From Owenia fusiformis (lineage: Eukaryota > Annelida > Polychaeta > Sabellida > Oweniidae): a stretch of 64,000 nt of DNA. Made by a program: the position numbers and the translations under genes. Shown here piece by piece: positions 274-25,177 of the stretch; within the stretch, counting starts at the first letter, position 1, and every line of letters starts with the position of its first letter. Below the pieces are notes generated by a model, which ran no database searches, was not told the DNA's origin, and worked only from the letters and a program-made list of their open reading frames with translations. Location: NCBI GenBank assembly GCA_903813345.2, contig CAIIXF020000009.1:21599759-21663758 (forward strand), read 5' to 3'.

Positions 274-440
274 TTAACCCTTTGAGTGCCATTGGGCCGA
301 TTCGGCCGATGGGAAAATGTATGTCGCTAAAGTGCCAAGATCGGCCCAAAATAACGCGTTTATATACACAGGGAAACATGTCATCAACTAGGAATGAATA
401 ATCTATTCTTATTTATTTATGTTTGTTCAGATCGCTCTTA

Positions 441-1150
441 ATAAATCGACCCGGTCTCAGTTTGATTTAAGTTAATTTAACAGACGCTGGGTATTTTACA
501 ACATCGTATAGTAAATGCGTTTAACCAAGTTGGCAAGGTTTAATGGAATATCGGCCCGAATATAGTAGATTCAATGATGTCCCCATAAATGGTGAATAAT
601 ACGTTACTGGTCAAGTAATTAAACAAATTGTGTTGCAAACTATCTGAGGTAACTTATTTTATGCTATGAACGCACGTAATTTTCGTATTTTTGCAACGCT
701 GATGTTTGTTAGATTGTATCTGTTAACGCAATTTAGTGTACAAATGAAGTAAATACTTGAAATTCGTGTATTGGAAATAAAATATGCATGGATATGAATG
801 AAACGTAATGTTTGTTTTGTTCATTAAAAATAATTCGACCTGATCTATTCCTCATATACAGTATACAATGTAGTTATATTTTACGAACGCTGGGCATCTT
901 ACAATATCCAAAAATTAATGCTTATTAACAAGCTTGGCATTCAAGGATTTCGTTAATATCGGCCCAAAATGTTGTCCCTATAAACGTTGATTTGTAAGTA
1001 ATTCGTCGCAAGTATACCAAAGTCACTTATTTGTAAATGAGTGCATTTCTTATTATACTTTGAACGCATATGATTTTCAGCATTTTAGAACGCTTACTGT
1101 TGTCTTGAAAGTGTAGCGTAATAACGTTTTTGAAACATGAAATTAACTGT
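441..1150 (+). repeat. Imperfect subterminal duplication inside the piggyBac-like element
   Basis: About 441-770 and 836-1150 are diverged tandem copies. Matching landmarks are 'gacgctgggtattttacaacat' type text at about 482 and its counterpart at about 887, the 'tcggccc' motifs, and 'gaacgca..ttttc..cattt' blocks. Duplicated subterminal blocks are common at transposase-binding ends, but function here is only inference. No gene is seen in 291-1757. Confidence 0.55.
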
Positions 1151-1757
1151 AACAATGTAAAACATGTATTTATAAATATAATCCATGTGAATATATAGAA
1201 ATGACATTACACATTATGCATCAACTGAAAATAAAAATAAAATACTTTTGGATGTAGAAATGCGAACTGATCATTGATAAAGAGCGTCCGTTTTCGTGTT
1301 TGTACGATGGACGCTGTGGTAGCTACATGTGTAAGTAGGCCTACATTATGCCTTATTACATGTATTAAACAAATCAAACATTAAATGAGTTAACGTACCA
1401 TTTCCTTAGTTTATCTGATTTTAACGTCGTCCTGAACATTATAAAAGGCGATACAATATGTATATTTCGTTGGGTAAATTATTTGTTCCTTCATGAGTAT
1501 AGCAAGCAATACGTATATACGTTTAGGGGATCTGGATTTACAGACAATATTGTCACAGAATATGCAAATGCTAAGATGATTAAATGTACGAGTAATAAAC
1601 AGTGTTTGAATGATTATAAATATAAAGAATCCACTATTTAGTTTTGTGTTCATTTAATACAATTAACCTGTTTTACCCTACCAGTGGAGACGATGGGCTC
1701 AATTGCAGTATCATATTGCAGTAAGTACAATGTTAAAGTATTTTACATAAATAAGGG

Positions 1758-2381
1758 TAGAGATTAAAAGGTGGATTGGATCGAGTGGATTGGATTCATG
1801 TAAAAGGTGGATTGGATCAGGATTCTTCAAATTATGGATTTTCCTTAAAAATGTATATTGATCTCCCATCAGATGATTAATGCTCTCCTCACTTCCACAA
1901 TGTCAAATAATAGATGTTATATCATTTTGCTTGGGTAGGCTAGAAAGGTGACCTCAGATACACAATCTTAATTATTCCAAGAGTAAATTTAGACGTTTCA
2001 CAAATCATAAGGCATGCTTTTGAAGTCGAAGTCCATATCATCTGTTTTCAATTCAAACAGAACATGTCTTGGGAACACCCACACGTCAATTTGAATGACA
2101 GTTTTTCTCTATAGATCTATGTTTATTATGTCTTACTAATGTTTATTTACAGGGGAGAGTAGTTAAATACTTTAGAGTATCTATCAACTAATTGAAATAT
2201 GTATTTGTCATTGCTTTGTCGATTCTTAAAGGGACCCAAGTAATCATAAAATACTTTAGCCCGGAGGAAATTGCTAAGAGGGAGTACAACTAAAAAATCC
2301 ATATTTTGAAGATTCCCGATCCAATCCACCTTTTACATGAATCCAATCCACTCGATCCAATCCACCTTTTAATATCTGCCT
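1758..2381. mobile_element. Nested miniature inverted-repeat element, MULE-like
   Basis: Two long inverted arms (about 1761-1842 and 2291-2377) share 'attaaaaggtggattggat' and 'gagtggattggattcatg' in opposite orientation. The element is flanked by the 9-bp direct repeat AAATAAGGG (1749-1757 and 2382-2390), the size expected for Mutator-type target duplications. No transposase-like frame lies inside. It is nested in the piggyBac-like element and therefore younger than it. Confidence 0.7.
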
Positions 2382-3340
2382 AAATAAGGGGTTTAAATTT
2401 AATAATATGAAATATTTTGTCCTAGATATCGTTTATTTATACTCCAGGCCACAAGGGCCGATTACCGCCCATTTTACCTGAAATTGTGAATTGCAACAAT
2501 ATAGAGTACCTCTCTTGTACATAATTTCGGCAATGTTAAATAAAGAGATGGCATCAGAAGAACATATATAAAATGACAATTTACTTACCTGCATTTAAAT
2601 TCTACTGCGTGCTATAGAAGATCTAGAGTTTCTAGATAGCTTTGAAATCTTGCTAACTCTCGTTTTTTCATGTCGCGATTTTAAGAGATTTGCACTTTTT
2701 ATCTCTAATTTTGATAGCATATTTGAATTTAGTGACACGTTTTCTCCAATAATAGCTTTGATTTACACAGTTATGTCATTTAAATCATTTTCTATGACAT
2801 TTGAAAAAACTTGGGCCAAATCTCCATTGGTGCAGTACTAAAATTCATTCAAACCTTGGCTAATTTGTATGACAACCATCTTGTATTGACAATATTGACA
2901 GGGCCATCCAATAGTATGTCATTCGAGTTTCAGACAGATTCAACCAACACGTTTTGATAAATCATGAAATTAATTGACTATTGCACGTTTCTAGCACTGA
3001 AGTGAATGGAGGTCTGGCCCAAGTAAAGTCAAAGACAAACAAAAGTGACATTTATTATGTCAGCGTTATTCAGCTATTTAGAAACTATACAATTACTCCC
3101 GTGGGTTCAAAGCTAATAATAATATTTTTAGTTTCACTTATTTTGAGCAAAATACTTTGGGGTTTAGGTACTTTTCAGACATTCTAGAGGTGAGAATTAC
3201 ATAAAACCAGACAGGTTTTTAGTTTTATTTCATCGTTTTTATATAAAACCTCGTCTTCTTGAATAATTTTGGATTTGATTCATCCTTTACACTGACGTTT
3301 CAGGTATATCAGTTTCAGATTTTAGTCATTATGTGAAACA

Positions 3341-3815
3341 AAATCGAGAGATGTATGTAATAAGTGCCATTTTTAACAACTCCATTTGGAGTCGGAAAAG
3401 TGGCTTGAGAATGCAGGAAAACTGACCAATCAGAATGCCAGATTCCTCAGTATTTTTAAAGTGAATCTTCGATTATCGAGAAACTTTTTCACGTTCAAAT
3501 TTCACCTACTTATCCTACGTGGGTGGCTTCAAAGGTGATACCATCGGGAAACTGACAATGTTAGCTTCACTATGACATTATGCTTTTAGAAATCGATCGA
3601 GAAATGGCGGAGAAAAAGACCGATAAGTGTCATTTCTGTAAAACGTGAGTTTGGGGAGCTAAAGTGGATTGGGACTGCAAGAAAGTCGGCCAATCAGAAC
3701 GCAGCATTTCTTCAGTGAAACTTGGCATTCGAGAAATCACCTTTACTCTCTATTTCCCCCATTTTCTCGTAATTTGGTCATTACAAAAGTGGAACCATCG
3801 GAAAGCTATTGTTCC
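3341..3815 (+). repeat. Diverged tandem duplication, about 250-bp unit
   Basis: 3341-3565 and 3594-3815 are imperfect copies. Paired landmarks are 'gaccaatcagaatgc' and 'ggccaatcagaacgc', 'tcagtga/tcagtatt', and 'accatcgggaaactg' and 'accatcggaaagcta'. It belongs to the body of the piggyBac-like element. No credible gene is seen between 2382 and 5101; the open frames there are short and unrecognised. Confidence 0.55.
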
Positions 3816-4559
3816 GAGCAAAACCATGGTCTTATTTATTTCGAAGTCTATCAATCAACAGCAGAGTTAAAGACTAATAAATTCCATTTTTATACAGCCA
3901 GTTTAGAGCAAAAAAGTGGATTTATGCAAATTAGCTAGACGTATCTAGGTTAGTAGCCCACGTATGTGGGTTAGTAGGTTTGTTCTGTCAAGGCCGCGCA
4001 TGTATCAATGCATAAGCAGATATCCGTTTCAGCATACTTTGAAACCGTACCTTACGTGTTCTTTCACGGAATCCACGTAGATTGAAAAATGCTGACATAT
4101 TTGGTCATTTCTATTTATTACACCTTAATTCGTATGATAGAATAGCGGGGATATTCTTTTTTCCATCTGAAAATGTACAAATGTACTTCAACATTGGGTG
4201 GGGAAAGATTTGTACATCAAACAAACCTTATTCAAATACATGAAGAAATAAACTCATATTATCAAGAAATTCTTGAAACCTCTGTTGCAGTTGCACGCAA
4301 AGACAAGAAGACTTTATTTCATGTATTTGGTTCTATAACCTGCGTAATCAACTGCATGCCTGTATGTACCTCCATGCAGAAACCATTTTTTAGGACTATA
4401 CGATTAAAGTTTTGTTTTTGGGGATAATGACAAATATTCTACTATTTTCCGTATTATCTCAGAAGGAAAACTGAATCTTTCACAGATTTCATATCGCAAA
4501 CATTATCTCGAAATATAGTTGACGATGCTTTTGGCCATACTAACTGACTAATAATTAAT

Positions 4560-4968
4560 ACATCTTGTTGATAAATGATGGAATCAGACTATGTTCGGCC
4601 TATTGTCATAATTAAAACAATCAGTCATTTCAATCATTTTATGCTATGGGCTTATTTTAAATATTGTTTATCCAAAGTAAAATTGGTTGTCTGAGTACGT
4701 TTGAGATCGGCGTTTAGCGCATTACACTACGTTGAAGCCTGGACGATATAAAAATGACTTTTTCATTTATACCAGGTGATGGATGGAATCAGACCATGTT
4801 CGATCTATTTTCGCAATTAACAAATCAGTCATTTAAATCATATATCAAAAGTATAATTGGTTGACTGAGTACGTTTGAGATATCAGTCATTTAAATCATT
4901 TAATGCTATAGGCTAATTTGGAATATAAAAATATAAAATTGGTTGTCTGAGTACGTTTAAGATTTCAA
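4560..4968 (+). repeat. Three degenerate repeats around 'ggttg(t/a)ctgagtacgttt'
   Basis: The string 'ggttg.ctgagtacgttt.agat' recurs at about 4685, 4858 and 4941. Each is preceded by 'cagtcattt.aatcat', and two by 'gatggaatcaga.catgttcg'. This is a small decayed tandem repeat upstream of the transposase remnant. Confidence 0.6.
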
Positions 4969-5101
4969 ACAGTATACTTTCAATAGAAAATAAAAATGGA
5001 TTAGAGCAGTATTGATTATTTTTAAATTTATAAGGAAAAATCCACCCCGCTTGTAAGGTTAGACTTTCACCAGGCCGTCATCGCCTCCCTAGATATCCAG
5101 C

Positions 5102-5421
5102 ATGAAAAAAGTGCATTTTAACATCATACAGAGATGGTTGCTCAATGCTAATATAATTTATAATGAAAACAATGCAGCTCTACTTTCAAGGTTAGACTTT
5201 CACATGGCCTTCATCGCCTCCCTAGTAGATATCCATCATTGGCCAGCCGATCTTGAGGGTTCGGAAAGTACCTGGAAGGCGGGAAAGGGACTGCTGCGTT
5301 TGTATTTGTAGTGATAGAGATGCAGGCAAGAGGACTAAATTCCGTAATGCATGAGCCAAGTGTGCCAAGCCCGGTGCCAAGGGCCTTCACTTGGACTGTT
5401 GCAGACACCACGTGTGCTGAA
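5102..5421 (+). pseudogene. piggyBac-type transposase, C-terminal remnant
   Basis: The frame from 5102 reads M-K-K-V-H-F-N-I-I-Q-R-W-L-L-N-A-N-I-I-Y then ...RLDFHMAFIASLVD. This resembles the family's region just after the DDE domain (W..+...LN..I.Y......FR..IA..L+). After a frame change near 5240 a second frame reads R-D-C-C-V-C...G-K-R-T-K-F-R-N-A, then TGA (5350-5352), then A-K-C-A-K...H-L-D-C-C-R-H-H-V-C. That spacing of Cys and His residues matches the cysteine-rich DNA-binding tail of piggyBac transposases. The reading is broken by at least one frame change and one stop. The position 0.75 kb inside the right inverted repeat fits a plus-strand transposase gene. The N-terminal and catalytic parts were not found. 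Confidence 0.65.
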
Positions 5422-6176
5422 AATACTAACAGACTAGCATATTGACATGATTCATTCATTACAATATAACGTAATGGATAAGATGTGGCTTATACATTGT
5501 ACATACTATTTTGTTGGTCACTTGTTTCGCATGTTACTAGCTTCACGTTTACGATCTATACTAACAAGTACAAGTAGGCTTTCACAATTAAACCATGGTT
5601 CATTATACACATCACACATGTTCTGCCAATTAAAGTTATCCTGAATTTGTATGAATTTGAATTATCCTGATATTGTATATTTATTCATTATTTTTGTACA
5701 TAGCATGTATATTGTTCGTATATGCTGAATTTCTTTAATTTGAAAGAAGGAATAATAAAAGAAAGAGGATAAATATTTGTATCATATTTTAATTTTAATT
5801 ATTGTTTTAAAATATTTGATAAGCTACGCCAAATGTGTTGCGCAAGAACGGGCGCATTACTAAAAGTAATTACGTTTAGTTTTCAAAGCTTTTTTCTTTC
5901 AACCGTGCGATATTTCCAATGTTAATTTTAGCTATAAAACCCCTCTAAGAACTGAAATATGTATTGATTAAGTGACGTTCAACATGTTACCATAGTAACT
6001 AAAAGTGAAAATAAAGCATTTTAACACTTGCTATATCATCAAGATAGATACCAGTGGAAGAAATATCATGGAGTGGAAAAACCATAAAAATCGATTTTTT
6101 CATCAATATTATAGTCATTTCCGTGGCATTTTGACGTCATAACAATTCCAAAACCCCACGGCACTCAAAGGGTTAA

Positions 6177-6503
6177 ATACTTTTTGTAAAATCAACCAAA
6201 ATTTCCTTTGTATAACTATATATAATATTGAGAGGTCTAATAGAACGTCAGATATGCTATTTTGTTCCAACAAGGTTCGGAAAGACATTTTATTTCATTC
6301 TCAAGAATTGGGAGAAAGGAACAAAAACAATTGCACTAAAAAACGAAAAATGTTAACAAAAACAGTTATATAATAAAAAATTTATACAAATAATTTTCGC
6401 ATTAAATTGTTATCAATCAGTCAACAATACTTAAAGGACCGTGTTTTTTTACAAAATGTTTTCAATAATTGGTTAAGAGGAAAAACATTGTTGAATTCAA
6501 TAT
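6177..6503. other. Gene-free spacer between piggyBac-like element and tRNA array
   Basis: AT-rich sequence with no open frame, repeat or RNA gene that I can recognise. It ends where the tRNA array unit begins abruptly. Confidence 0.6.
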
Positions 6504-6511
6504 CAGAGTTG
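6504..6511 (+). pseudogene. 3' tail of a truncated tRNA-Arg
   Basis: CAGAGTTG is the 3' acceptor strand and discriminator base of the array tRNA, followed by the normal unit spacer. It marks the left breakpoint of the array. Confidence 0.7.
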
Positions 6512-6660
6512 ATAACACTTTTTTGTTAGGAGACAAACGATGAAGTGAAATTCAATGCATGCACGAAATCAATAAAGTTACTTTTATTTCATGTTCTCAT
6601 GATACGCAGTAACGGATTGCTCTCATTATCAATTCAGTAATATTTATTTGTGCATGAATT

Positions 6661-6751
6661 GACTCTGTGGCGCAATGGATAGCGCGTTGGACTTCTAGCC
6701 GTGGTAAACAAAGTGGTTCAAAGGTTGTGGGTTCGAGTCCCACCAGAGTTG
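6661..6751 (+). tRNA. tRNA-Arg(UCU), copy 1
   Basis: The 91-bp gene has a 73-nt mature part. The acceptor stem pairs GACTCTG with CAGAGTT, with a terminal G-U. D stem is GCGC/GCGC, anticodon stem TTGGA/TTCAA, loop CTTCTA plus intron plus one base, and anticodon TCT. The 18-bp intron follows position 37, and the T stem GTGGG/CCCAC is perfect. It differs from consensus by G instead of A at position 38 and one intron base. TTTT lies just downstream. Confidence 0.9.
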
Positions 6752-6899
6752 ATATCTTCTTTTCTTAAAAGACAAACGGTACAGTGATATTCAATGCATA
6801 CACGAAATCAATAAAGTTACTTTTATTTCATGTTCTCATGATACGTAGTAACGGATTGCTCTCTTTATCAATCCAGTAATATTAATGTATGCATGAATT

Positions 6900-6990
6900 G
6901 ACTCTGTGGCGCAATGGATAGCGCGTTGGACTTCTAGCCGTGATAAACAAAGTGATTCAAAAGTTGTGGGTTCGAGTCCCACTAGAGTTG
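6900..6990 (+). tRNA. tRNA-Arg(UCU), copy 2
   Basis: Full-length with the 18-bp intron. It carries a G-to-A change in the variable loop and C66 to T, leaving a G-U pair at 7-66. Probably functional. Confidence 0.85.
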
Positions 6991-7139
6991 ATATCTTCTT
7001 TTGTTAGAAGACAAACGGTACAGTGATATTCAATGCATACACGAAATCGATAAAGTTACTTTTATGTCATGTTCTCACGATACGTAGTAACGGATTGCTC
7101 TCTTTATCAATCCAGTAATATTCTTGGTATGCAGGAATT

Positions 7140-7230
7140 GACTCTCTGGCGCAATGGATAGCGCGTTGGACTTCTAGCCGTGATAAACAAAGTGATTCAA
7201 AGGTTGTGGCTTCGAGTCCAACCGGAGTTG
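7140..7230 (+). tRNA. tRNA-Arg(UCU)-like, copy 3, variant B (defective stems)
   Basis: Same length and intron, but G7 is C and the T arm reads GTGGC/CCAAC, giving mismatches at 7-66, 51-63 and 53-61. The B-box G at 53 is lost. The same changes recur in copies 7, 10 and 15, so this is a propagated sub-family. Likely a tRNA pseudogene. Confidence 0.75.
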
Positions 7231-7377
7231 ATAACTTCTTTTGTTAGAAGACAAACGGTACAGTGATATTCAATGCATACACAGAATCAATAAAGTTACT
7301 TTTATTTCATGTTCTCATGATACGTAGCAATGGATTGCTCCCATTATGAATCCAGTAATATTTATCATGCATGAATT

Positions 7378-7468
7378 GACTCTGCGGCGCAATGGATAGC
7401 GCGTTGGACTTCTAGCCGTGATAAACAAAGTGATTCAAAGGTTGTGGGTTCGAGTACCACCAGAGTTG
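7378..7468 (+). tRNA. tRNA-Arg(UCU), copy 4
   Basis: Full-length with intron. The conserved T8 is C and C61 is A, the latter unpairing 53-61. Function is doubtful. Confidence 0.75.
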
Positions 7469-7613
7469 ATAACAATTTTGTTGGAAGACAAACGGTACAG
7501 TGATATTCAATGCATACACGAAATCAATAAAGTTACTTTTATTTCATGTTCTCATGATACGTAGTAATGCATTGCTCTCATTAAGAATCCAGTAAAAACT
7601 GTATCCATGAATT

Positions 7614-7704
7614 GACTCTGTGGCGCAATGGATAGCGCGTTGGACTTCTAGCCGTGATAAACAAAGTGATTCAAAGGTTGTGGGTTCGAGTCCCACCAGA
7701 GTTG
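7614..7704 (+). tRNA. tRNA-Arg(UCU), copy 5 (consensus)
   Basis: Identical to the array consensus: all stems pair, the 18-bp intron is in place, and an oligo-T stop follows. The upstream spacer is of the 'aaaaactgtatccatg' type shared with copies 9, 12 and 17. Confidence 0.93.
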
Positions 7705-7853
7705 ATATCTTCTTTTGTTAGAAGACAAACGGTACAGTGATATTCAATGCATACACGAAATCGATAAAGTTACTTTTATTTCATGTTCTCACGATACGTA
7801 GTAACGGATTGCTCTCTTTATCAATCCAGTAATATTCTGCGTATGCATGAATT

Positions 7854-7944
7854 GACTCTGTGGCGCAATGGATAGCGCGTTGGACTTCTAGCCGTGATAA
7901 ACAAAGTGATTCAAAGGTTGTGGGTTCGAGTCCCACCAGAGTTG
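7854..7944 (+). tRNA. tRNA-Arg(UCU), copy 6 (consensus)
   Basis: Identical to the array consensus. TTTT follows in 'aacaattttgttgg'. Confidence 0.93.
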
Positions 7945-8092
7945 GTAACAATTTTGTTGGAAGACAAACAGTACAGTGATATTCAATGCATACACGAAAT
8001 CAATAAAGTTACTTTTATTTCATGTTCTCATGATACGTAGTAATGCATTGCTCTCATTATGAATCCAGTAATATTCTTGGTATGCAGGAATT

Positions 8093-8183
8093 GACTCTCT
8101 GGCGCAATGGATAGCGCGTTGGACTTCTAGCCGTGATAAAAAAAGTGATTCAAAGGTTGTGGCTTCGAGTCCAAGCGGAGTTG
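8093..8183 (+). tRNA. tRNA-Arg(UCU)-like, copy 7, variant B
   Basis: Carries the variant-B changes (G7 to C, GTGGC T arm), an extra change at position 65 and a C-to-A in the intron. Likely a pseudogene. Confidence 0.7.
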
Positions 8184-8332
8184 ATAACTTCTTTTGTTAG
8201 AAGACAGACGGTACAGTGATATTCAATGCATACACGGAATCAATAAAGTTACTTTTATTTCATGTCCTCATGATACGTAGCAATGGATTGCTCCCATTAT
8301 CAATCCAGTAATATTCTTCGTATGCATGAATT

Positions 8333-8423
8333 GACTCTGTGGCGCAATGGATAGCGCTTTGGACTTCTAGTCGTGATAAACAAAGTGATTCAAAGGTTGT
8401 GGGTTCGAGTCCCACCAGAGTTG
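8333..8423 (+). tRNA. tRNA-Arg(UCU), copy 8
   Basis: Full-length; G26 is T and one intron base is changed. All stems remain paired. Confidence 0.87.
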
Positions 8424-8568
8424 ATAACAATTTTGTTGGAAGACAAACGGTACAGTGATATTCAATGCATACACGAAATCAATAAAGTTACTTTTATTTC
8501 ATGTTCTCATGATACGTAGTAATGCATTGCTCTCATTAAGAATCCAGTAAAAACTGTATCCATGAATT

Positions 8569-8659
8569 GACTCTGTGGCGCAATGGATAGCGTGTTGGAC
8601 TTCTAGCTGTGATAAACAAAGTGATTCAAAGGTTGTGGTTTCGAGTCCCACCAGAGTTG
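8569..8659 (+). tRNA. tRNA-Arg(UCU), copy 9
   Basis: C25 is T (G-U pair 10-25), one intron base is changed, and G53 is T, which breaks the last T-stem pair. Function is doubtful. Confidence 0.77.
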
Positions 8660-8806
8660 GTAACAATTTTGTTGGAAGACAAACAGTACAGTGATATTCA
8701 ATGCATACACAAAATCAATAAAGTTACTTTTATTTCATGTTCTCATGATACGTAGTAATGCATTGCTCTCATTATGAATCCAGTAATATCTTGGTATGCA
8801 GGAATT

Positions 8807-8897
8807 GACTCTCTGGCGCAATGGATAGCGCGTTGGACTTCTAGCCGTGATAAACAAAGTGATTCAAAGGTTGTGGCTTCGAGTCCAACCGGAGTTG
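8807..8897 (+). tRNA. tRNA-Arg(UCU)-like, copy 10, variant B
   Basis: Sequence is the same as copy 3, with the same acceptor and T-arm mismatches. Likely a pseudogene. Confidence 0.75.
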
Positions 8898-9044
8898 ATA
8901 ACTTCTTTTGTTAGAAGACAAACGGTACAGTGATATTCAATGCATACACGGAATCAATAAAGTTACTTTTATTTCATGTTCTCATGATACGTAGCAATGG
9001 ATTGCTCCCATTATGAATCCAGTAATATTTATCATGCATGAATT

Positions 9045-9135
9045 GACTCTGTGGCGCAATGGATAGCGCGTTGGACTTCTAGCCGTGATAAACAAAGTGA
9101 TTCAAAGGTTGTGGGTTCGAGTCCCACCAGAGTTG
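9045..9135 (+). tRNA. tRNA-Arg(UCU), copy 11 (consensus)
   Basis: Identical to the array consensus; an oligo-T stop follows. Confidence 0.93.
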
Positions 9136-9280
9136 ATAACAATTTTGTTGGAAGACAAACGGTACAGTGATATTCAATACATACACGAAATCAATAAAGT
9201 TACTTTTATTTCATGTTCTCATGATACGTAATAATGCATTGCTCTCATTAAGAATCCAGTAAAAACTGTATCCATGAATT

Positions 9281-9371
9281 GACTCTGTGGCGCAATGGTT
9301 AGCGCGTTGGACTTCTAGCCGTGATAAACAAAGTGATTCAAAGGTTGTGGGTTCGAGTCCCACCAGAGTTG
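9281..9371 (+). tRNA. tRNA-Arg(UCU), copy 12
   Basis: One change from consensus, A to T in the D loop (caatggTtagcg). Probably functional. Confidence 0.9.
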
Positions 9372-9519
9372 ATAATTTCTTTTGTTAGAAGACAAACGGT
9401 ACAGTGATATTCAATGCATACATGAAATCAATAAAGTTACTTTTATTTCATGTTCTCATGATACGTAGTAACGGATTGCTCTCTTTATCAATCCAGTAAT
9501 ATTCATGTATGCATGAATT

Positions 9520-9610
9520 GACTCTGTGGCGCAATGGATAGCGCGTTGGACTTCTAGCCGTGATAAACAAAGTGATTCAAAGGTTGTGGGTTCGAGTCCC
9601 ACCAAAGTTG
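9520..9610 (+). tRNA. tRNA-Arg(UCU), copy 13
   Basis: One change from consensus: G68 to A, giving a C-A mismatch at acceptor pair 5-68. Confidence 0.82.
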
Positions 9611-9759
9611 ATATCTTCTTTTGTTAGAAGACAAACGGTACAGTGATATTCAATGCATACACGAAATCGATAAAGTTACTTTTATTTCATGTTCTCACGA
9701 TACGTAGTAACGGATTGCTCTCTTTATCAATCCAGTAATATTCTGCATATGCATGAATT

Positions 9760-9850
9760 GACTCTGTGGCGCAATGGATAGCGCGTTGGACTTCTAGCCG
9801 TGATAAACAAAGTGATTCAAAGGTTGTGGGTTCGAGTCTCACCAGAGTTG
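9760..9850 (+). tRNA. tRNA-Arg(UCU), copy 14
   Basis: One change from consensus: C62 to T, giving a tolerable G-U pair in the T stem. Confidence 0.88.
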
Positions 9851-9998
9851 GTAACAATTTTGTTGGAAGACAAACAGTACAGTGATATTCAATGCATACA
9901 CAAAACCAATAAAGTTTCTTTCATTTCATGTTCTCATGATACGTAGTAATGCATTGCTCTCATTATGAATCCAGTAATATTCTTGGTATGCAGGAATT

Positions 9999-10089
9999 GA
10001 CTCTCTGGCGCAATGGATAGCGCGTTGGACTTCTAGCCGTGATAAAAAAAGTGATTCAAAGGTTGTGGCTTCGAGTCCAACCGGAGTTG
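9999..10089 (+). tRNA. tRNA-Arg(UCU)-like, copy 15, variant B
   Basis: Variant-B changes plus the intron C-to-A shared with copy 7, which marks the two as recent duplicates of one block. Likely a pseudogene. Confidence 0.72.
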
Positions 10090-10238
10090 ACAACTTCTTT
10101 TGTTAGAAGACAGACGGTACAGTGATATTCAATGCATACACGAAATCAATAAAGTTACTTTTATTTCATGTTCTCATGATACGTAGCAATGGATTGCTCC
10201 CATTATCAATCCAGTAATATTCTTCGTATGCATGAATT

Positions 10239-10329
10239 GACTCTGTGGCGCAATGGATAGCGCGTTGGACTTCTAGCCGTGATAAACAAAGTGATTCAAA
10301 GGTTGTGGGTTCGAGTCCCACCAGAGTTG
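10239..10329 (+). tRNA. tRNA-Arg(UCU), copy 16 (consensus)
   Basis: Identical to the array consensus; an oligo-T stop follows. Confidence 0.93.
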
Positions 10330-10474
10330 ATAACAATTTTGTTGGAAGACAAACGGTACAGTGATATTCAATGCATACACAAAATCAATAAAGTTACTTT
10401 TATTTTATGTTCTCATGATACGTAGTAATGCATTGCTCTCATTAAGAATACAGTAAAAACTGTATCCATGAATT

Positions 10475-10565
10475 GACTCTGTGGCGCAATGGATAGCGCG
10501 TTAGACTTCTAGCCGTGATAAACAAAGTGATTCAAAGGTTGTGGCATCGAGTCCCACCGGAGTTG
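10475..10565 (+). tRNA. tRNA-Arg(UCU)-like, copy 17
   Basis: Changes: G29 to A, G53 to C, T54 to A and A67 to G. The T54 change hits a near-invariant T-loop base and the B box. Probably inactive. Confidence 0.7.
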
Positions 10566-10712
10566 ATAACTTCTTTTGTTAGAAGACAAACGGTACAGTG
10601 ATATTCAATGCATACACGGAATCAATAAAGTTACTTTTATTTCATGTCCTCATGATACGTAGCAATGGATTGCTCCCATTATGAATCCAGTAATATTTAT
10701 CATGCATGAATT

Positions 10713-10803
10713 GACTCTGTGGCGCAATGGATAGCGCGTTGGACTTCTAGCCGTGATAAACAAAGTGATTCAAAGGTTGTGGGTTCGAGTCCCACCAGAG
10801 TTG
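10713..10803 (+). tRNA. tRNA-Arg(UCU), copy 18 (consensus)
   Basis: Identical to the array consensus; an oligo-T stop follows. Confidence 0.93.
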
Positions 10804-10950
10804 ATAACACTTTTGTTAGAAGACAAACGGTACAGTGATATTCAATGCATACACGAAATCAAAAAAGTTACTTTTATTTCATGTTCTCATGATACATAGT
10901 AATAGATTGCTCCCATTATCAATCCAGTAATATTTATTTATGCATGAATT

Positions 10951-11041
10951 GACTCTGTGGCGCAATGGATAGCGCGTTGTACTTCTAGCTGTGATAAACA
11001 AAGTGATTCAAAGGTTGTGGGTTCTAGTCCCACCAGAGTTG
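10951..11041 (+). tRNA. tRNA-Arg(UCU)-like, copy 19
   Basis: G30 is T (breaks an anticodon-stem pair) and G57 is T (breaks the conserved T loop/B box). One intron base is changed. Probably inactive. Confidence 0.72.
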
Positions 11042-11187
11042 ATAACACTTTTGTTAGAAGACAAACGGTACAGTGATATTCAATGCATACAGGAAATCAA
11101 AAAAGTTACTTTTATTTCATGTTCTCATGATACGTAGTAATAGATTGCTCCCATTATCAATCCAGTATTATTATTTCTGCATGAATT

Positions 11188-11278
11188 GACTCTGTGGCGC
11201 AATGGATAGCGCGTTGGACTTCTAGCCGTGATAAACAAAGTGATTCAAAGGTTGTGGGTTCGAGTCCCACCAGAGTTG
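11188..11278 (+). tRNA. tRNA-Arg(UCU), copy 20 (consensus)
   Basis: Identical to the array consensus and the last intact copy. TTTT follows in 'agctccttttgttag'. Confidence 0.93.
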
Positions 11279-11427
11279 ATAGCTCCTTTTGTTAGAAGAC
11301 AAACGGTACAGTGGTATTCAATGCATACACGAAATCAATAAAGTTACTTTTATTTCATGTTACCATGATACGTAGCAATGGATTTCTCCCATTATCAATC
11401 CAGTAATATTCTTCGTATGCATGAATT

Positions 11428-11516
11428 GACTCTGTGGCGCAATGGATTCGTGTTGGACTTCTAGCCGTGATAAACAAACTGATCCAAAGGTTGTGGGTTC
11501 TAGTCCCACCAGATTG
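11428..11516 (+). pseudogene. tRNA-Arg pseudogene, copy 21
   Basis: Recognisable tRNA-Arg sequence with a damaged D arm (GGATTCGTG), G57 to T, and a deletion in the 3' acceptor strand (CACCAGATTG). Confidence 0.8.
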
Positions 11517-11673
11517 TTAGAAGACAAACGGTACAGTGATATTCATTGTATGCGAGAAATCAATAATGTTACTCATATTTCATGTTCTCATGATACGTAG
11601 CAATTAATGGGTTGCTCTCATTATAAATTCAGTAATATTATAAATTCAGTAATATTCATGGAACGCATGATTA

Positions 11674-11728
11674 GACTCTGTGGCACAATGGATGGCGCGT
11701 TGGACTTCTAGCTGTGATAAACAAAGTA
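11674..11728 (+). pseudogene. 5' half of tRNA-Arg, copy 22 (truncated)
   Basis: Runs from GACTCTG through the anticodon and most of the intron, then stops at 'acaaagta' and joins unrelated sequence. It is the right edge of the array, 5 bp before the hairpin at 11733. Confidence 0.8.
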
Positions 11729-11776: not shown

Positions 11777-11788
11777 GCCTGAACTTAC

Positions 11789-11883
11789 CTCAACAGAGCT
11801 TTTTCGCCAAAATAATCCCCTCGTTTCAACATTCGTATTTCTTGCGGTTCTTCTTTTCCGGATACATTTTGTGTGACACGGAC
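11789..11883 (-). CDS. PRKG: PKG exon: domain B cassette start
   Basis: Acceptor is TTTCAAG and donor GTAAGT. It reads VRVTQNVSGKEEPQEIRMLK, then RGDYFGEKALL, ending in phase 2. The next exon should encode the R-T-A-N part of domain B and was not found below this point; the tRNA array occupies the adjacent 5 kb. Confidence 0.88.
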
Positions 11884-12036
11884 CTTGAAAGAATACCATT
11901 TTGATTTATAAGAACAATAGAAGTGATTAAAAAATGTATCTCTTCTTCTTTCATAATATTGTTTAATAATTACTAATAACAGACAATGATATTCCGTATA
12001 CAAAAGCCAAAAAAGAAAAGGAAACCGTGTTCTTAC

Positions 12037-12114
12037 CTCTCCTTTTCGGATGATAAAGAAAGTATCACCAGTTTCACCCTCTCGTAATATATACTCGTGT
12101 TCATGGAAGAAATC
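12037..12114 (-). CDS. PRKG: PKG exon: domain B, first half
   Basis: Phase-0 exon of 26 codons with acceptor ATTATAG and donor GTAAGA. It reads DFFHEHEYILREGETGDTFF, then IIRKGE. The R-E-G-E-x-G-D-T-F-F-I-I block is diagnostic of PKG domain B. Confidence 0.9.
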
Positions 12115-12366
12115 CTATAATATCAAAGTGTTACAATCATGATAGAATACCAAGATTATTATATCATTCTCCATTCTCCAGCGCCCCATTGTGTTGTTTT
12201 AATTGGACTATACTAACAAATATACTTTAACAGCAGAATATTATCTCTTAAATTCGAACTTTGGCACACACTACCATAGGCTATAACTGTACTAATAGTT
12301 ACACAGCATGCAGTTCATACATTTCTGTATCATATACATACTGATCCAATTTCAATATCTACTTAC

Positions 12367-12430
12367 AACTTCAAGCACATCTGCAATTTTGGCAAGTTTG
12401 TCTGTAGGCAGCTTTTTCAGTAAAGGCACA
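12367..12430 (-). CDS. PRKG: PKG exon: linker into domain B
   Basis: Acceptor is GTTTTCAG and donor GTAAGT. It reads (S)VPLLKKLPTDKLAKIADVLEV, matching the PKG segment S-V-P-x-L-x-x-L-P-x-x-K-L-x-K-I-A-D-x-L-E. It completes a Ser codon split with the previous exon. Confidence 0.88.
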
Positions 12431-12930
12431 CTGAAAACAAGAGAAATTAATTGAAACATGTTGCGCAATTCAGTCTCATTGACATTCAGGGTATCTGCTA
12501 CATTTGGTTAAACAAGCCAAGTCAAGCCCCGAATTGAAAAGGGTAAGTACAGTTTGATTGTGCAAGGTTATTGCCAATAGACTCTAGATGTGAGTAGACT
12601 AGAAATAATCTTTTTTTTATTCATAGAAAAAACATTTGAAAGCAGTTACATTAACATATACAATATACATAATATCATAGAAGTCACACAATTTCCCATC
12701 ATATTCTTTTTTAAGGCATCTAACCACACTAGTCTAATCTAATCTAGTACCCATAATTTCCCACCTTTTTTCTGCCTATTCGCTTATCAATATTACAATA
12801 GGATATTACATTTGCTTTAAATCCTTTAAAGATACAGGTAGGTCTTAACATCGAACATTTGCATAGGTTCACATATTATTTTAACGTCCTTAAAAATTCA
12901 AAATTCAGTCAAAGTGCTATCAAATGTGAA

Positions 12931-13055
12931 ATATACATGTAAAATTACATCTAGAAATGTGGTTTTAAAAACTGTTATCAACTTTGAAACTTTAATTTTC
13001 TTTGAAAATGTGACATTTAGGTTGTGAAGATTCTCCCATAGACCCACGTTATAAA
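12931..13055 (+). repeat. Dispersed repeat, second copy at 55504-55640
   Basis: The two copies share 'acatgtaaaattacatcta', 'gaaatgtggtttt', 'aattttctttgaaaatgtga' and 'cccatagaccc' in the same order and orientation. Family unknown. Confidence 0.8.
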
Positions 13056-13691
13056 ATAAAAAATCGCATCTTGGTAATTGTACCGTATATAGAATGACTT
13101 CGAGGGCTGTCAATAGATGCTACTCTGGCGGATCAAATGTAATTGCAATTTAACATTGTAGTTTCATCATTCACGATTTCTACATTGTACAGGTCAACGA
13201 ACAAAATGAGACTTTTGGACGACACGTTGTAATAATGATTTTCCTCAAATAATTGTGCAGGCTTCATTTCTACAAACTCATATCAATCACCTGCTTGGCA
13301 TAATTTCCAGATATATATTTTCACACTCTGGCCTTGGTTGGTATGTAAACATACAACTGATCGATACAGTCGTATTATTGATCAATGTTGTATGACATAC
13401 GGTCAATCTGTCACTAATTACTTTTCACTGGTAAGGGAGTTGAATAATTTCAAATTCATTTGTTTCTAGGTTACCTTAGGAAACGTGATATCAATTGATT
13501 TTTTGTCATGAACTGACTGCAATGTGACTTTAGTTTTACATGTTTTTCAATATCTCTATCTTCCCGATGGTTTTGATAATTAGCACTTCGGAAATGTCAT
13601 AATTTCACAATTATTGTGGTTTGAAAGAATGGTCAGTAATATGGGATCGATGTCAGTCTAGGCTATAGGGCTCAGTTGCTTGGATTAAATC

Positions 13692-13834
13692 CACTGGCGG
13701 ATCTTGGGGGGGGGGCAAATTTTGAAGAAAATGGGCCTCAAAATCTGGGCCCACTTTTGGGTTTTAGGGGCCCAAAATTTTTTTCTCTGTCCTGAAATTT
13801 GCCCCCCCCTTGTTGGTTCCCAGATCCGCCCCTG
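13692..13834. mobile_element. 143-bp hairpin miniature element
   Basis: The ends CACTGGCGGATCTTGG and CCAGATCCGCCCCTG are near-perfect inverted repeats, and the G-run/C-run interior also folds back. A 5-bp direct repeat AAATC flanks it (13687-13691, 13835-13839). The C-A-x-x-GGCGGATC-type terminus resembles hAT-derived miniature elements, but an 8-bp duplication is not seen. Confidence 0.7.
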
Positions 13835-13969
13835 AAATCATTCCCTATGTGCTCTACTATAGTTCCACCCGGGGAGTCATTACATTGTCAATCCCATTAC
13901 ATCTACTGCAATGCAATCTACTCCATAATTATTCAGTGGTATTGATATACTAATACTAATAATTGATAC

Positions 13970-14075
13970 CTTCTGAGAAAACGAATATTTTCTTCTTGTC
14001 TTTGAGGACCAGTTTTCATCATAATCGCCTGGAAGACTCGTCAGTCTAGAACCCACATCCGGGCATTGGAGGCAG
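13970..14075 (-). pseudogene. PRKG: PKG exon: end of domain A, interrupted by TGA
   Basis: Acceptor is CTTTCAG and donor GTATCA; the length of 106 bp keeps phase 1 in and phase 2 out. It reads A-A-S-N-A-R-M-W-V-L-D, stop, R-V-F-Q-A-I-M-M-K-T-G, then PQRQEENIRFLR. The stop is TGA at 14041-14043. A CGA codon there would give the conserved Arg, so a CpG C-to-T transition is the simplest explanation. Confidence 0.85.
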
Positions 14076-14398
14076 CTGAAAGATAAATGTGCATGTCCGT
14101 AGTTGTTGTCTACTAACTTGAACCTTTTTGACTTGCTCACATGACCAGATAGGTTTCAATTTCTCAGAGGTAAGGATGGAAAGACACATGTGTGCTCATC
14201 ATTACTTGGGGTTAGGCTATTATCCTATGCTAATCAAACCATATTAAGAACAGTTCGAAATCATTTTTTCCATTTCTTCATTTTTCAAAGTACGGTCCTT
14301 ATAATTCAAAACGATATTCATGTATGTTTTAAACACCAACCCGCCTGCCCAAAAATATGCGAGAATGAGCGTGAACGTGTATATATATTTTGTAATAC

Positions 14399-14512
14399 CT
14401 CTGACTGAAGCTGTCCTGGTACAATTGTATAAAATTGCCAGTTCTCCGAATGCCCTGCCAGGTCCCATCTTTCCCAACAATTTTCCATCCTTCATAACTT
14501 CCAGTTCTCCCT
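14399..14512 (-). CDS. PRKG: PKG exon: domain A phosphate-binding cassette
   Basis: Acceptor is TTGTTGCAG and donor GTATTA. It reads EGELEVMKDGKLLGKMGPGR, then AFGELAILYNCTRTASVRG. The cassette FGELAILYNCTRTA is characteristic of PKG; the residue after RTA is Ser, compatible with cGMP preference. Confidence 0.9.
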
Positions 14513-16044
14513 CTGCAACAAATAACAAACAAAAATAGTAGTTATTGACACGTGCAGGCTCTACATTATGCCTGGGTGACATTTGCTCCGATCCATCGGC
14601 CGGCGCCCGACCGATTAAGTGTTTTCTCAATATTGTATTAAATTTTGGACGAAATACTCAATCGGCCGGGCGCCGTAGTGAAAATCGGAGCCTATGTGAC
14701 CAAGGCATTAGTACTACGTATTGAAGTCGAACATCCGAATGGCCCATGGACTTAGTTTTTACCAATTTTATACGATTTTTGAAACAATTATTGTTCTATC
14801 CTTTCATTTAATTTAGGATTAACACTCCACCCGCCAATGGTTATATTGAAGAATAATTGTTTCAAAAATTACGGAGAGAAGTGTATGTGACGTCACTTTG
14901 CGTTTAATATGTATTTTGCAGATTTATATTTACCTCGTAAATAGTTGTTAATTGCGATACTAAATGTGCTAAATATACTAACAACACACTAAATAAGAAA
15001 CTCCGATAAGAAACGTTATGTTAGTACCGAAACAAATCAAAAAGGAGAAACACTTCCCAAGTTTACTACATTGTGAACTTTACTGAACAAAAATAAACAT
15101 TAAAAATAGAAGAAATATATCGAGTAATAAGCGCCATTAAAGCTACATCCCCGGAGGGTTCCAAATGTAACTTAAATTAATGAGAATACAATATTTTTTA
15201 AATAAAAAGTGTATAATCAATTCCGCAATCGGAACCATAGGGAGCCATAAAGTGCCGTTTCGTGTTCCAGTCTCTGACGTGATACCGACACTAACGAGGC
15301 GCAGGGACCAGATGGATGGCAATGCGATGGAGATCAATTTAGAGATGGAAATAAATGATGTAATGTGAAAGCTTTTGGCAATACATCATATTCACATGAA
15401 TGTAATTTAAAGAAGTTATTAATGTTCCTCATTAACAAGTCTAAACACTCAACTATTTTAATGCCAATTGGGAACGGTTCAGCATATATCAGTGACATAA
15501 GCCTACTATAGTCTTCAAGATTTCCTGATTATATACATTTTTAATATTTAGTTTTAATAATATTTTAGCCCCTTGGGTGATTGCGTAATTGCGCAGTACT
15601 AGCGGTTGAACCCCATCGATTAGTTGTACTCGCGGTGTTCAATTATTGGATAAGGTATGCTAAAATTCTGGCAAAAGACTATTTCCTCTATTGTCACCCG
15701 ATCGTCAAATAATCGATCGTCAGTATCTTCTGACAATAAATCATAAAGCTGAAAATATTTTTCCGCTAATCGATGTTCTCCTCAAAGTAATGTCCCCAAA
15801 CTATCATCCGGGCGGTCAATTTAAATGGACACGGAAAGCACCGCCGCATTTAATAAATATGTTGGACCTATTTTCTAAAAACATCACTTTTCATTTTTTG
15901 TCTAAAACCATGCGGATAATGCAATTTCAAAGTGAGACTTGACCATTCGTATAACGTATCTTTGATAATAGTTTCCGATATTCAGTTAAGCCAATGAATG
16001 ATCGGTATTTTTGGAGAATTCTTGATAAATATGTGTTGTCATAC
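14513..16044 (-). other. PRKG: PKG intron, no feature recognised
   Basis: Large intron between the two domain A exons. A short palindromic patch around 14585-14690 (both sides carry 'cggccg..cg' strings) is the only structure I noticed. Confidence 0.5.
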
Positions 16045-16211: not shown

Positions 16212-16930
16212 CTGGAAATAAACATGTTTATTTATCAATAAGAGGCAGAATCGATTGCATCGTCCCTTGTACCATGAATTGACTAATAAGCTTCCAGGTC
16301 ATTGGGACTAAGCCTTTAACGTCCTCTTCAAATCTTAGAACTATAGAACACAGGGCAGCCAAAATCTCAGATATATATTCAGTCATGAAACCGTGAAAAT
16401 GAAGTCCAATGGTAACCCATGTCCTCATCCTCACATTTGTTTTTTGATATACTTTATTTGCATCGTCCATGTTTAAGCCTATCCTAGGCCTCTTGTGGAC
16501 ATTGACCTAGGATCTTTGGATGGCCATGTCTCACGCACCTTGACAGATTATGTGTATTATATAAAACGAATTTGCAGGATTCATATTATTACTTCGTGAC
16601 TCTGCATCAGCAACGAACAGTGAGGTGATGCTCCTGCCTGTGATTTATGGTGCATCATCTGGGATATCATTGTGATTAGTACTATGCATTAGCCCAGAGG
16701 CCCTTGTCACAATGTACAACGAAATCAGAAATGGTACGTGGCCATTTTCAGTGATTTTTGAATTGAGGGCCGTTCGTAACGTTTCCAGTAGCAAACGAGC
16801 TGCACCATAAGTAAAAGATTAAAGTCCTTTCTGATCTTGCATACATCTTGGATTCAGAGACCTGATTCGATACAAAATGTGAAGTAACGAGATTTAAATC
16901 TAGGTTGGGACCTAGAATGAAGAAAAGACA
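16212..16930. other. No supported gene upstream of the PKG exons
   Basis: An 80-codon minus-strand open frame (16228-16470) abuts the first PKG exon. It ends before the acceptor and matches nothing I know. The N-terminal leucine zipper and autoinhibitory segment of PKG were not found. Confidence 0.4.
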
Positions 16931-17349
16931 ATTACTCTAAGAGCGAAGAGGAAAATTCTTAATAAATGGAGTATAGTTGGTTTGGCAGCATTTTCAGTTA
17001 GAGGGAAGTCTTGGATGAAAATTCTACCTAGGTGATAGCTTCACAGAGTGGTACATAATTCTTTTTTTTCAGGGGTTATCCCCCCACCCCCCAAAAACAC
17101 CCCACCCCCGGAAAATAATTTTTTCATTCTCAATAATTTTAGATATCTTGATGTTTGTAAGTTACATACATAGACATATACATAGTTACATACATAGGGA
17201 TTATATATATAAATCATTTTCAAAATAAATAATGCCAATTACTCCTACAGAATTTGGAAAATACTACAAAGTATGTACCCCAGGTGGCAAATTTGTGACC
17301 CATTTTCTTACTATTTAGAGCCTCACTTTTCAATCAGACACTGGAAGAC

Positions 17350-19362: not shown

Positions 19363-19368
<6 letters not shown>
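17350..19368 (+). repeat. 180-bp-class tandem satellite, left block
   Basis: The marker 'gaattgtacaatatcaggtctgaa' or close variants recurs at about 17633, 17816, 17998, 18183, 18365, 18532, 18715, 18862, 19083 and 19253, mostly 182-183 bp apart. Each unit also has 'gatgatat.tatggtttt.tagt.tgg.aactaagatgtaaaa'. Units diverge to the right. The block continues after the LINE at 25178. Confidence 0.9.

Positions 19369-19401
<33 letters not shown>
19369..19401 (-). other. Poly(A) tail of the LINE
   Basis: An unbroken T-run on the plus strand directly abuts the left target duplication. It marks the 3' end of the minus-strand LINE. Confidence 0.9.
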
Positions 19402-19403
<2 letters not shown>

Positions 19404-19869
19404 TCACTCATTTATTTCATATATACATACTACAGCATTCTATAAATATTTTTTGTGTTTACAATTGACGGGCTAAAGGTTGTCGCCAACATTAGTTATA
19501 TATCAAGAAGTAATACAAAAAGCTTATTCTTATGATGCTTTATCTACAAAACAAGTTCTTATGATCTTTTTATCTACCAAATTTACTTTTTTTTTTTTTT
19601 ATTGATCCAGTATTATTTATGGATACTGTGCTTGTTACATGTATTTCATATGTAGTTGTATGCATCTATGGAATAACCTCATTCATACATCCCTCATTCA
19701 TACATTCATTCACTCATTCAATCATCTTTTCATTCGTTACACATTTTACAATATGTTAAATATGATCTTTGGTTACATATCTATTTATTTTTATTACTGT
19801 TACACATAATTTTTTATTATGTCAATGGAAAATATAAAGTTAATACAAAAATAAAAACAATACATATTC

Positions 19870-25162: not shown

Positions 25163-25177
25163 GTGTTGGACTAAGAT

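Follow-up and report, generated by a model that had tools for sequence, protein, structure and literature searches.

Organization of the tRNA-Arg(UCU) array

In the window, a 64,000-nt stretch of Owenia fusiformis DNA, 20 full-length tRNA-Arg(UCU) genes of 91 bp were found on the plus strand at 6661–11278, arranged head to tail with a spacing of 236–240 bp. Full-length copies were defined as ungapped matches with no more than 6 mismatches in 91 positions; on the minus strand, an ungapped scan allowing up to 30 mismatches detected no copy. The repeat unit of approximately 238 bp consisted of one gene and a non-tRNA part of approximately 147 bp, and TRF reported a 239-bp unit present in 21.6 copies at 6504–11639. 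At the left edge (6504–6660, plus strand), as set by the TRF start and the sequence, the spacer opened with the last bases of one tRNA copy and no full tRNA was present. Downstream of the full copies, on the same strand, were a decayed edge copy with indels (copy 21, 11428–11517, Rfam 34.7 bits) and a 22nd copy reduced to a 54-bp 5′ stub (11674–11727), which formed the right edge.

The initial annotation had described a dense, single-isoacceptor array of 20 intron-bearing copies in strict head-to-tail order at about 238-bp spacing, six of them identical to the consensus and the majority followed by a Pol III T-stop. All of this was borne out: the ungapped scan gave the same count and order, the TCT anticodon and an 18-nt intron after position 37 were present in 20 of the 20 copies, six copies matched the consensus exactly, and TTTT started at +8 or +9 downstream of every copy. 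With a single anticodon and such short distances, the array agrees with the definition of a homogeneous tRNA gene cluster (one isoacceptor family, less than 1000 nt apart) in PMC2888827.

Searching with the Rfam tRNA model (RF00005) at the gathering threshold produced 20 hits in the window, comprising 19 of the 20 full copies (the one at 8093 was missed) and the edge copy at 11428, with scores of 31.2–60.4 bits against a cut-off of 29 and E values of 6e-10 or lower in eight. ARAGORN made only 13 calls, and in 12 the anticodon could not be read, for which the intron is the most likely cause.

Integrity of the individual copies

All 21 cloverleaf pairs were kept in 11 of the 20 copies, and 10 of those also had strict A and B boxes; over the whole array, the A box was found in 19 copies and the strict B box in 11. 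The consensus-identical copies were copy 5 (7614–7704, Rfam 58.1 bits), copy 6 (7854–7944), copy 11 (9045–9135), copy 16 (10239–10329), copy 18 (10713–10803) and copy 20 (11188–11278). Pairs and boxes were also intact in copy 1 (6661–6751), copy 2 (6900–6990; C84T, giving G-U), copy 8 (8333–8423; G26T and, in the intron, C39T) and copy 12 (9281–9371; A19T), which had the top Rfam score of 60.4.

Each of the other 10 copies had at least one pair or box that was broken or departed from the consensus. One broken type, class C (G7C, G71C, C81A, A85G), was common to four copies and spread by block duplication: copy 3 (7140–7230, Rfam 31.2 bits), copy 7 (8093–8183; with C83G added, under the Rfam gathering score), copy 10 (8807–8897) and copy 15 (9999–10089). 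Copy 17 (10475–10565; G29A, G71C, T72A, A85G) was a broken relative of this class. Different changes affected copy 4 (7378–7468; T8C and C79A, in the A box and the 71-79 pair), copy 9 (8569–8659; G71T, breaking the B box), copy 13 (9520–9610; G86A, breaking one acceptor pair), copy 14 (9760–9850; C80T, giving a G-U pair and a B box off consensus) and copy 19 (10951–11041; broken by G30T and G75T). The initial annotation had named tRNAscan-SE scoring of nearly all copies as pseudogenes as a result that would speak against the array; by our own pair and box criteria, applied in place of tRNAscan-SE scores, half of the copies were intact, with 19 of 20 accepted by Rfam.

C32 and intron G(-3), which we take to be the anticodon-intron pair, were kept in all 20 copies. 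The acceptor pair 1-72 was G-U in the array and also in 5 of the six separate Arg(UCU) genes of the genome (see below). The minimum-energy fold was not a cloverleaf either for the pre-tRNA (-28.3 kcal/mol, vs -22.6 with the cloverleaf enforced) or for the spliced form (-24.0). In the energy model, the anticodon-intron helix brought no gain (-20.4 vs -20.5).

A sister array and the host kinase gene

A sister array (B) was located 0.33 Mb from the window array (A). It had 6 full copies, compared with 20 in A, and 4 of the 6 were identical to the A consensus; thus the intact sequence was the commonest allele in both arrays. Together, A and B held 14 strictly intact Arg(UCU) genes among the 26 copies tested. 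The edges of the two arrays decayed alike, the decayed right edge being common to both.

Array B lay within a cGMP-dependent protein kinase gene, antisense in one of its introns, and the window array, judged from sequence, looks as if it sits in a partial duplicate of that gene. Adjoining the array, on the minus strand, were cNBD-B coding pieces at 11788–11883 and 12034–12114 (feature 11788–12114, ends approximate); on the same strand, a cNBD-A coding piece of the same gene copy was at 14400–14519. Used as one query, these kinase-like pieces had PKG 1 as their best PDB match (E 3.3e-27). The segment common to the two loci extended over 199–28117 of the window and C9:21936616–21946070, minus two insertions present in the window only (about 277–6173 and 16889–27323). 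Outside 199–28117, matches to the B flanks were short or of low identity and repeat-like, the best being 91% over 170 bp at 45860. No N was present in the stretches examined at A and B, a scope that leaves out approximately 0.25 Mb between the loci.

Other tRNA genes and spacer matches in the genome

A count of Arg-TCT genes elsewhere had been proposed in the initial annotation, and six separate genes were found outside the arrays (three on C4 and one each on C7, C10 and C194), with other introns and flanks. In three of the six (two on C4 and the C7 gene), the mature sequence agreed with the array consensus at all but a single compensated pair, T6-A67 in the array vs C6-G67. The C10, C194 and third C4 genes differed further from this consensus; the C194 gene also had T6-A67, together with other differences. 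Introns varied between loci, and the 3′ end AAGTNA was found in the array and 4 of the 6 separate genes (absent from C194 and C4:21724636). Elsewhere in the genome, Lys(UUU) genes formed arrays on C7 and C8, and Arg(UCG) genes an irregular cluster on C3. A genome-wide tRNA search, with 63 scored out of 33,560 first-look candidates, also gave pairs of tRNA hits on C1, C5 and C11; the window array itself was absent from its listing.

All 29 genome matches to the spacer were inside arrays A and B (3 of 3 first-look candidates scored), although this is not proof, very common words having been skipped.

Turnover and tests for selection

Along the array, the unit types were ordered a a C d a e C d e C d a a e C d C f f g. 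With these hand-set labels, neighbouring units recurred together more than in shuffles, both as pairs (p = 0.003) and as triples (p = 0.004). Because copy 20, labelled g by hand, groups with class C by spacer, the test was rerun with strict spacer-cluster labels at three cut-offs, giving weaker results (pairs, p 0.007–0.032; triples, p 0.012–0.016).

Variation was studied in the 20 A copies and 5 of the 6 B copies, edge copies being left out. In the tRNA exons, 15 variants were single-copy and 4 shared, all 4 in class C, while the spacer had 20 single-copy and 31 shared variants (Fisher p = 0.006); this test is only suggestive, because the sites are linked. Without class C and its relative p was 0.037, and with class C taken as one event it was 0.0001, both choices being post hoc. 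Nucleotide diversity (pi) was 0.042 in exons, 0.094 in the spacer and 0.032 in the intron. The density of variable sites did not differ significantly between exons (19/73) and spacer (51/148; p = 0.22), and the intron was as uniform as the exons, which is not predicted by selection on the mature tRNA alone. A comparison restricted to intact copies (p = 2e-5) was discarded as circular, the copies having been picked for their intact exons, and no weight was placed on a neutral expectation for the exon difference, which rests on an assumed divergence of 5.5%.

Interpretation and alternatives

The array represents a familiar kind of tRNA gene cluster that has been amplified locally. Each unit of approximately 238 bp carries one gene with its TTTT terminator, and intact copies have the internal Pol III promoter (A and B box). 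Gene integrity, turnover, the single and shared variants and the similar tRNA arrays elsewhere in the genome support this reading, and we consider it probable that this is a real homogeneous tRNA-Arg(UCU) cluster in which unequal exchange makes the array grow and shrink, about half of the copies are active, and purifying selection acts at the level of the array. The starting point would have been a single tRNA gene in an intron of the cGMP-dependent protein kinase gene, which may have grown into an array by unequal crossing-over. The array and about 11 kb of the kinase gene would then have been copied over a distance of 0.33 Mb, and independent expansion and contraction at the two sites could have led to 20 and 6 copies. 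About half of the copies would give transcripts that are spliced and serve as ordinary tRNA-Arg in reading AGA codons. Broken copies may arise freely, a few hitch-hiking in block duplications, and selection on the whole array would hold the intact sequence commonest.

Several other explanations were weighed. The array might be a mostly silent, neutral or satellite-like repeat that holds a tRNA gene by chance and is uniform through homogenisation alone, perhaps silenced in chromatin like the Arabidopsis Ser-Tyr-Tyr (SYY) cluster, which, according to PMC12308677, shows activity in root cap cells but is silenced across most other tissues. The 10 defective copies, the propagation of class C in blocks, the similar variable-site densities of exons and spacer and the uniform intron are in its favour; we nevertheless regard it as unlikely, since the intact sequence is the commonest in both arrays and matches three separate genes bar the compensated pair, and few exon variants are shared. 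Dosage amplification selected for AGA decoding, with a high and perhaps tissue-specific AGA demand raising copy number, is quite unlikely. It is consistent with the 14 strictly intact genes and with two points in PMC12308677, that codon frequencies and the number of tRNA gene copies are correlated and that a tandem cluster has a role in making a Ser-/Tyr-rich protein; in a LINE-like ORF of the window, 38 of 50 Arg codons are AGA, but this ORF belongs to a mobile element. Against it, the sister arrays differ in copy number, and, according to PMC2888827, codon usage cannot account for how widely tRNA gene copy numbers differ. In the host coding pieces, AGA accounted for 10 of 56 Arg codons: 1/9 in the protein kinase exons, 3/15 in a phosphatase-like ORF, 1/18 in histone H3 and 5/14 in H4. 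For the histones, 3 of 14 returned loci were read and one (L029) was counted, the other two being alike (H4 5/14 and 4/14); two open frames on the opposite strand were left out. In this small sample AGA, called a rare codon in the initial annotation, was thus not rare, nor did it predominate; the annotation's suggestion of AGA supply found no positive support in the sample, and separate Arg(UCU) genes exist.

An assembly artefact, in which A and B are two retained haplotypes of one locus, would fit the common stretches, 92–99% alike with large insertion differences, and the compared coding pieces, which differ at 1 of 297 bases. We hold this to be decidedly unlikely, because the B kinase exon is single: its next best genome match was 93% at C9:24597636 (31 matches, all 92 candidates being scored). 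A search for a small set of kinase motifs gave no match in the window or the 45 kb upstream, and the repeat-like character of B-flank matches outside the common segment also argues against two haplotypes. It is very improbable that the array is a copy-number-variable regulatory block, in which Pol III traffic from 6–20 antisense intronic units would oppose or insulate the kinase gene and class-C units, amplified with intact neighbours, would give tRNA-like RNAs that do not translate. SINEs are built of a tRNA head and a non-tRNA part, and the unit here shares this general build. An origin as tandem copies of such a tRNA-headed mobile element is hardly tenable, however, given that no poly-A tail was seen in the unit, that tRNA matches outside the arrays were the six separate genes, and that the spacer, whose 29 matches in a search skipping very common words all fell in A and B, is not a spreading repeat. 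A SINE or dispersed satellite was accordingly rejected as unsupported; of the selfish satellite proposed initially, satellite-like block turnover within the array stood and spreading did not.

The sister arrays of 20 and 6 copies with a common decayed right edge can be used to trace tRNA dosage change by unequal exchange, and could show at which level selection operates, the single copy or the entire array. Since the T6-A67 pair and the intron are unlike those of most separate genes, transcripts of the array could be distinguished by tRNA or pre-tRNA sequencing, and the activity of tandem tRNA clusters becomes directly testable here.

Comparison with known tRNA gene clusters

In eukaryotes, homogeneous clusters consist of parallel tRNA genes of the same isoacceptor less than 1000 nt apart, with interspersed pseudogenes, and are evolutionarily unstable (PMC2888827, 2010). 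The present array resembles them in its isoacceptor, close spacing, parallel order and interspersed broken copies. Those clusters are mostly small, reaching fifty and more in Nematostella and teleosts; in Nematostella and zebrafish, tRNA pairs are mostly of mixed types, unlike the single-type array here (PMC2888827). The Arabidopsis SYY and Cys clusters are likewise tandem tRNA gene repeats (PMC12308677; PMC10701932), the Cys cluster having 0.4-kb units, an edge pseudogene and ecotype-dependent copy number (PMC10701932). The SYY cluster, however, is from a plant, contains two different tRNAs and is silent in the majority of tissues (PMC12308677), whereas the array here has one tRNA; its sister array, unlike the Arabidopsis clusters, lies in an intron of a protein gene. 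The human tRNA VNTR at 1q23.3 (9–43 units) also consists of tRNA genes in tandem, and its copy number varies widely; in O. fusiformis, the difference observed is that between the sister loci, with 20 and 6 full copies. The human unit is 7.3 kb, GC-rich and has a CTCF site (PMC4041453), compared with approximately 238 bp and one gene here. In Entamoeba, tRNA genes are in tandem arrays as well; there, almost all tRNA genes are arrayed, in mixed units with microsatellite-like repeats (PMC2652664), whereas O. fusiformis also has separate genes.

Organization of the tRNA-Arg(UCU) array

The genome assembly comprises 498 Mb in 525 contigs, and the window (CAIIXF020000009.1, hereafter C9, 21599759-21663758) has a G+C content of 33.6%. 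The initial annotation had described twenty head-to-tail tRNA genes at a spacing of about 238 bp, six identical to the consensus and most followed by a Pol III T-stop, and recounting bore this out. Array A contained 20 full-length copies (91 bp) at window positions 6661-11278, all on the plus strand and 236-240 bp apart; 6 were consensus-identical, and TTTT began 8-9 bp past the gene end in all 20. A decayed 21st copy (11428-11517) lay at the right edge, followed by a 54-bp stub (11674-11727) at the right end. TRF reported a single array (6504-11639) with a period of 239 (or 479). The Rfam tRNA model, at its gathering threshold, matched 19 of the 20 full copies and the 21st copy. ARAGORN made 13 calls, 12 of them with an unreadable anticodon, most likely because of the intron.

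Integrity of the gene copies

Gene parts (UCU anticodon, 18-nt intron after position 37, A box and B box) were assigned by position. The anticodon TCT was present in all 20 copies, the A box in 19 and a strict B box in 11. In every copy C32 lay opposite intron base -3; this anticodon-intron pair is a known guide for splicing. Ten copies had all cloverleaf pairs and both boxes. Copy 14 kept every pair but departed from the B-box consensus; in copy 13 one acceptor pair was broken. Copies 3, 7, 10 and 15 (class C) had in common G7C, G71C, C81A and A85G (numbered by alignment column); these changes disrupt the B box and three pairs. Copy 17 was a relative of this class.

On free RNA folding, neither the precursor nor the spliced RNA preferred the cloverleaf, and the energy model credited no gain to the anticodon-intron helix. 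These results weigh mildly against a real tRNA gene cluster, though RNA energy models often fail on unmodified tRNA.

Sister array and host locus

A DNA search of the genome with the array gene gave 36 candidates, all of which were scored, at 36 places: 22 were in array A (20 copies, the decayed copy and the stub), 8 were in array B, a sister array on C9 at a distance of 0.33 Mb, and six were separate. Array B had 6 copies (C9:21937542-21938830), 4 of them identical to the array A consensus, as well as a 39-bp piece and an edge stub. Directly before its first tRNA was an element of about 500 bp (C9:21937037-21937536; 7037-7536 in locus L009), 73% like window 3094-2624 on the opposite strand.

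Array A is adjoined by minus-strand coding pieces resembling a cGMP-dependent protein kinase (best PDB match PKG 1, E 3.3e-27). At array B, kinase-domain motifs were found beyond the array (C9:21932585, 21931131, 21930611 and 21930557), placing array B in an intron, antisense to the kinase gene. At A, the window and the 45 kb upstream of it showed no such motif. In the genome search with that kinase exon (31 matches in total), the exon itself occurred at B only, the next best match being a paralogue of 93% identity at C9:24597636. The two loci resemble each other across window 199-28117, interrupted by two insertions present only in A; beyond it, matches were short or of low identity, the best, at window 45860, being 91% over 170 bp. 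On the sequence read at either side of an intervening stretch of about 0.25 Mb, locus A is therefore best taken for a partial copy of locus B. Counting against partial duplication, the kinase coding pieces (window 11788-14519 and C9:21939109-21941800) had 1 difference in 297 bases compared, when a decaying fragment should differ more; the common non-array stretches differed by about 1-8%. Exon conversion, a use for the shortened gene or an assembly error may account for the low coding divergence.

The insertion at window 277-6173 (5.9 kb) had a TTAA target and terminal repeats starting CCCTTTGAGTGCC, and is presumably piggyBac-like. The other (16889-27323; 10.4 kb) had inverted ends and carried a 1243-aa open reading frame on the minus strand (19873-23601), which by eye resembles a LINE endonuclease/reverse transcriptase and in which AGA made up 38 of 50 Arg codons. 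Elsewhere in the window were a 68-bp unit in about 24 tandem copies (57980-59629) and a 295-aa open frame (62229-63113), which by eye resembles a purple acid phosphatase.

Separate relatives of the gene and spacer

The six separate places were on C4 (three), C7, C10 and C194. In the C7 gene and two of those on C4 the tRNA body was that of the array except at pair 6-67, which is C-G versus T-A in the array, a compensated change. The C10 gene had a further difference at position 72. The C194 gene carried T-A at pair 6-67, like the array, but differed from it elsewhere, and the remaining C4 gene had an altered T arm and an altered intron. Introns of the separate genes differed from the array's, with the 3' end AAGTNA common to the array and 4 of the 6. 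All 29 genome matches to the spacer fell within arrays A and B, so the spacer was not seen as a dispersed repeat by this search, whose tool passes over very common words.

Turnover and proposed selection

Typed by spacer and gene, the unit order in array A was a a C d a e C d e C d a a e C d C f f g. Neighbouring pairs and triples recurred more often than in shuffles with these hand-set labels (p=0.003 and p=0.004), and with spacer-cluster labels at three cut-offs (pairs, p 0.007-0.032; triples, p 0.012-0.016), as expected if multi-unit blocks were duplicated by unequal exchange. Spacers of A and B (5 of 6 B copies included) differed on average at 15.4 of 153 columns (minimum 5), close to the 15.3 within A, which suggests that the unit diversity is older than the A/B split.

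Variable sites were not significantly rarer in tRNA exons (19/73) than in the spacer (51/148; p=0.22); pi was lowest in the intron (0.032), followed by the exons (0.042) and the spacer (0.094). Exon variants were mostly single-copy (15, with 4 shared, all four being class C) and spacer variants mostly shared (31, with 20 single; p=0.006, a guide only since the sites are linked). Mutations thus appear to strike the genes freely and seldom spread, a pattern that fits array-level selection; the low intron diversity hints that whole-gene homogenisation plays some part. We consider it quite probable that array A is a real tRNA-Arg(UCU) cluster, reshaped by unequal exchange and kept under array-level purifying selection, with about half of the copies predicted to be active. 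This is tempered by the weaker recurrence under strict labels and by an intron as uniform as the exons.

The likeliest predicted job of that half is as ordinary tRNA-Arg for AGA codons. As for the suggestion that the array could supply AGA-rich translation, no sign was seen of such demand as the driver: of 56 Arg codons counted in host coding sequence, AGA accounted for 10, in a small sample picked by convenience. According to PMC2888827, codon usage cannot account for tRNA copy-number differences of this kind; PMC12308677 has tRNA gene number correlating with codon frequencies.

Comparison with other tRNA clusters

A genome tRNA scan, with 63 of 33,560 first-look candidates scored, nevertheless turned up further clusters. 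A Lys(UUU) cluster on C7 (L021, C7:7127001-7137000, local 3644-6383) had 9 ARAGORN calls and more, truncated copies interleaved, spaced 234-238 bp in places. A second (L022, C8:34956001-34966000, local 4255-5791) had 5 calls every 365-367 bp, and an Arg(UCG) cluster (L023, C3:7351001-7360000, local 4108-7404) had 5 calls at irregular spacing. Tandem clustering of tRNA genes thus seems to be habitual in this genome. Within the C7 array, L021 3790-3864 had the anticodon TTC (Glu) and scored 62.3 bits as tRNA, possibly an anticodon-switched Lys tRNA. Histone genes also stood in regular tandem repeats (C8:9815557-9873725, about 6.4 kb; C11:19692500-19737461, about 6.8 kb).

Literature searches capable of finding this array turned up no paper with a plain description of it. 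As defined in PMC2888827 (same isoacceptor family, less than 1000 nt apart), array A is a homogeneous parallel tRNA gene cluster, and the Figure 4 legend there has a mixed cluster including several Arg(TCT) copies. Other reports describe tandem tRNA repeats in Arabidopsis (PMC10701932; PMC12308677), at human 1q23.3 (PMC4041453) and in Entamoeba (PMC2652664), and a flea genome with 4,358 tRNA genes, Arg among those raised, and ordinary codon usage (PMC7305587).
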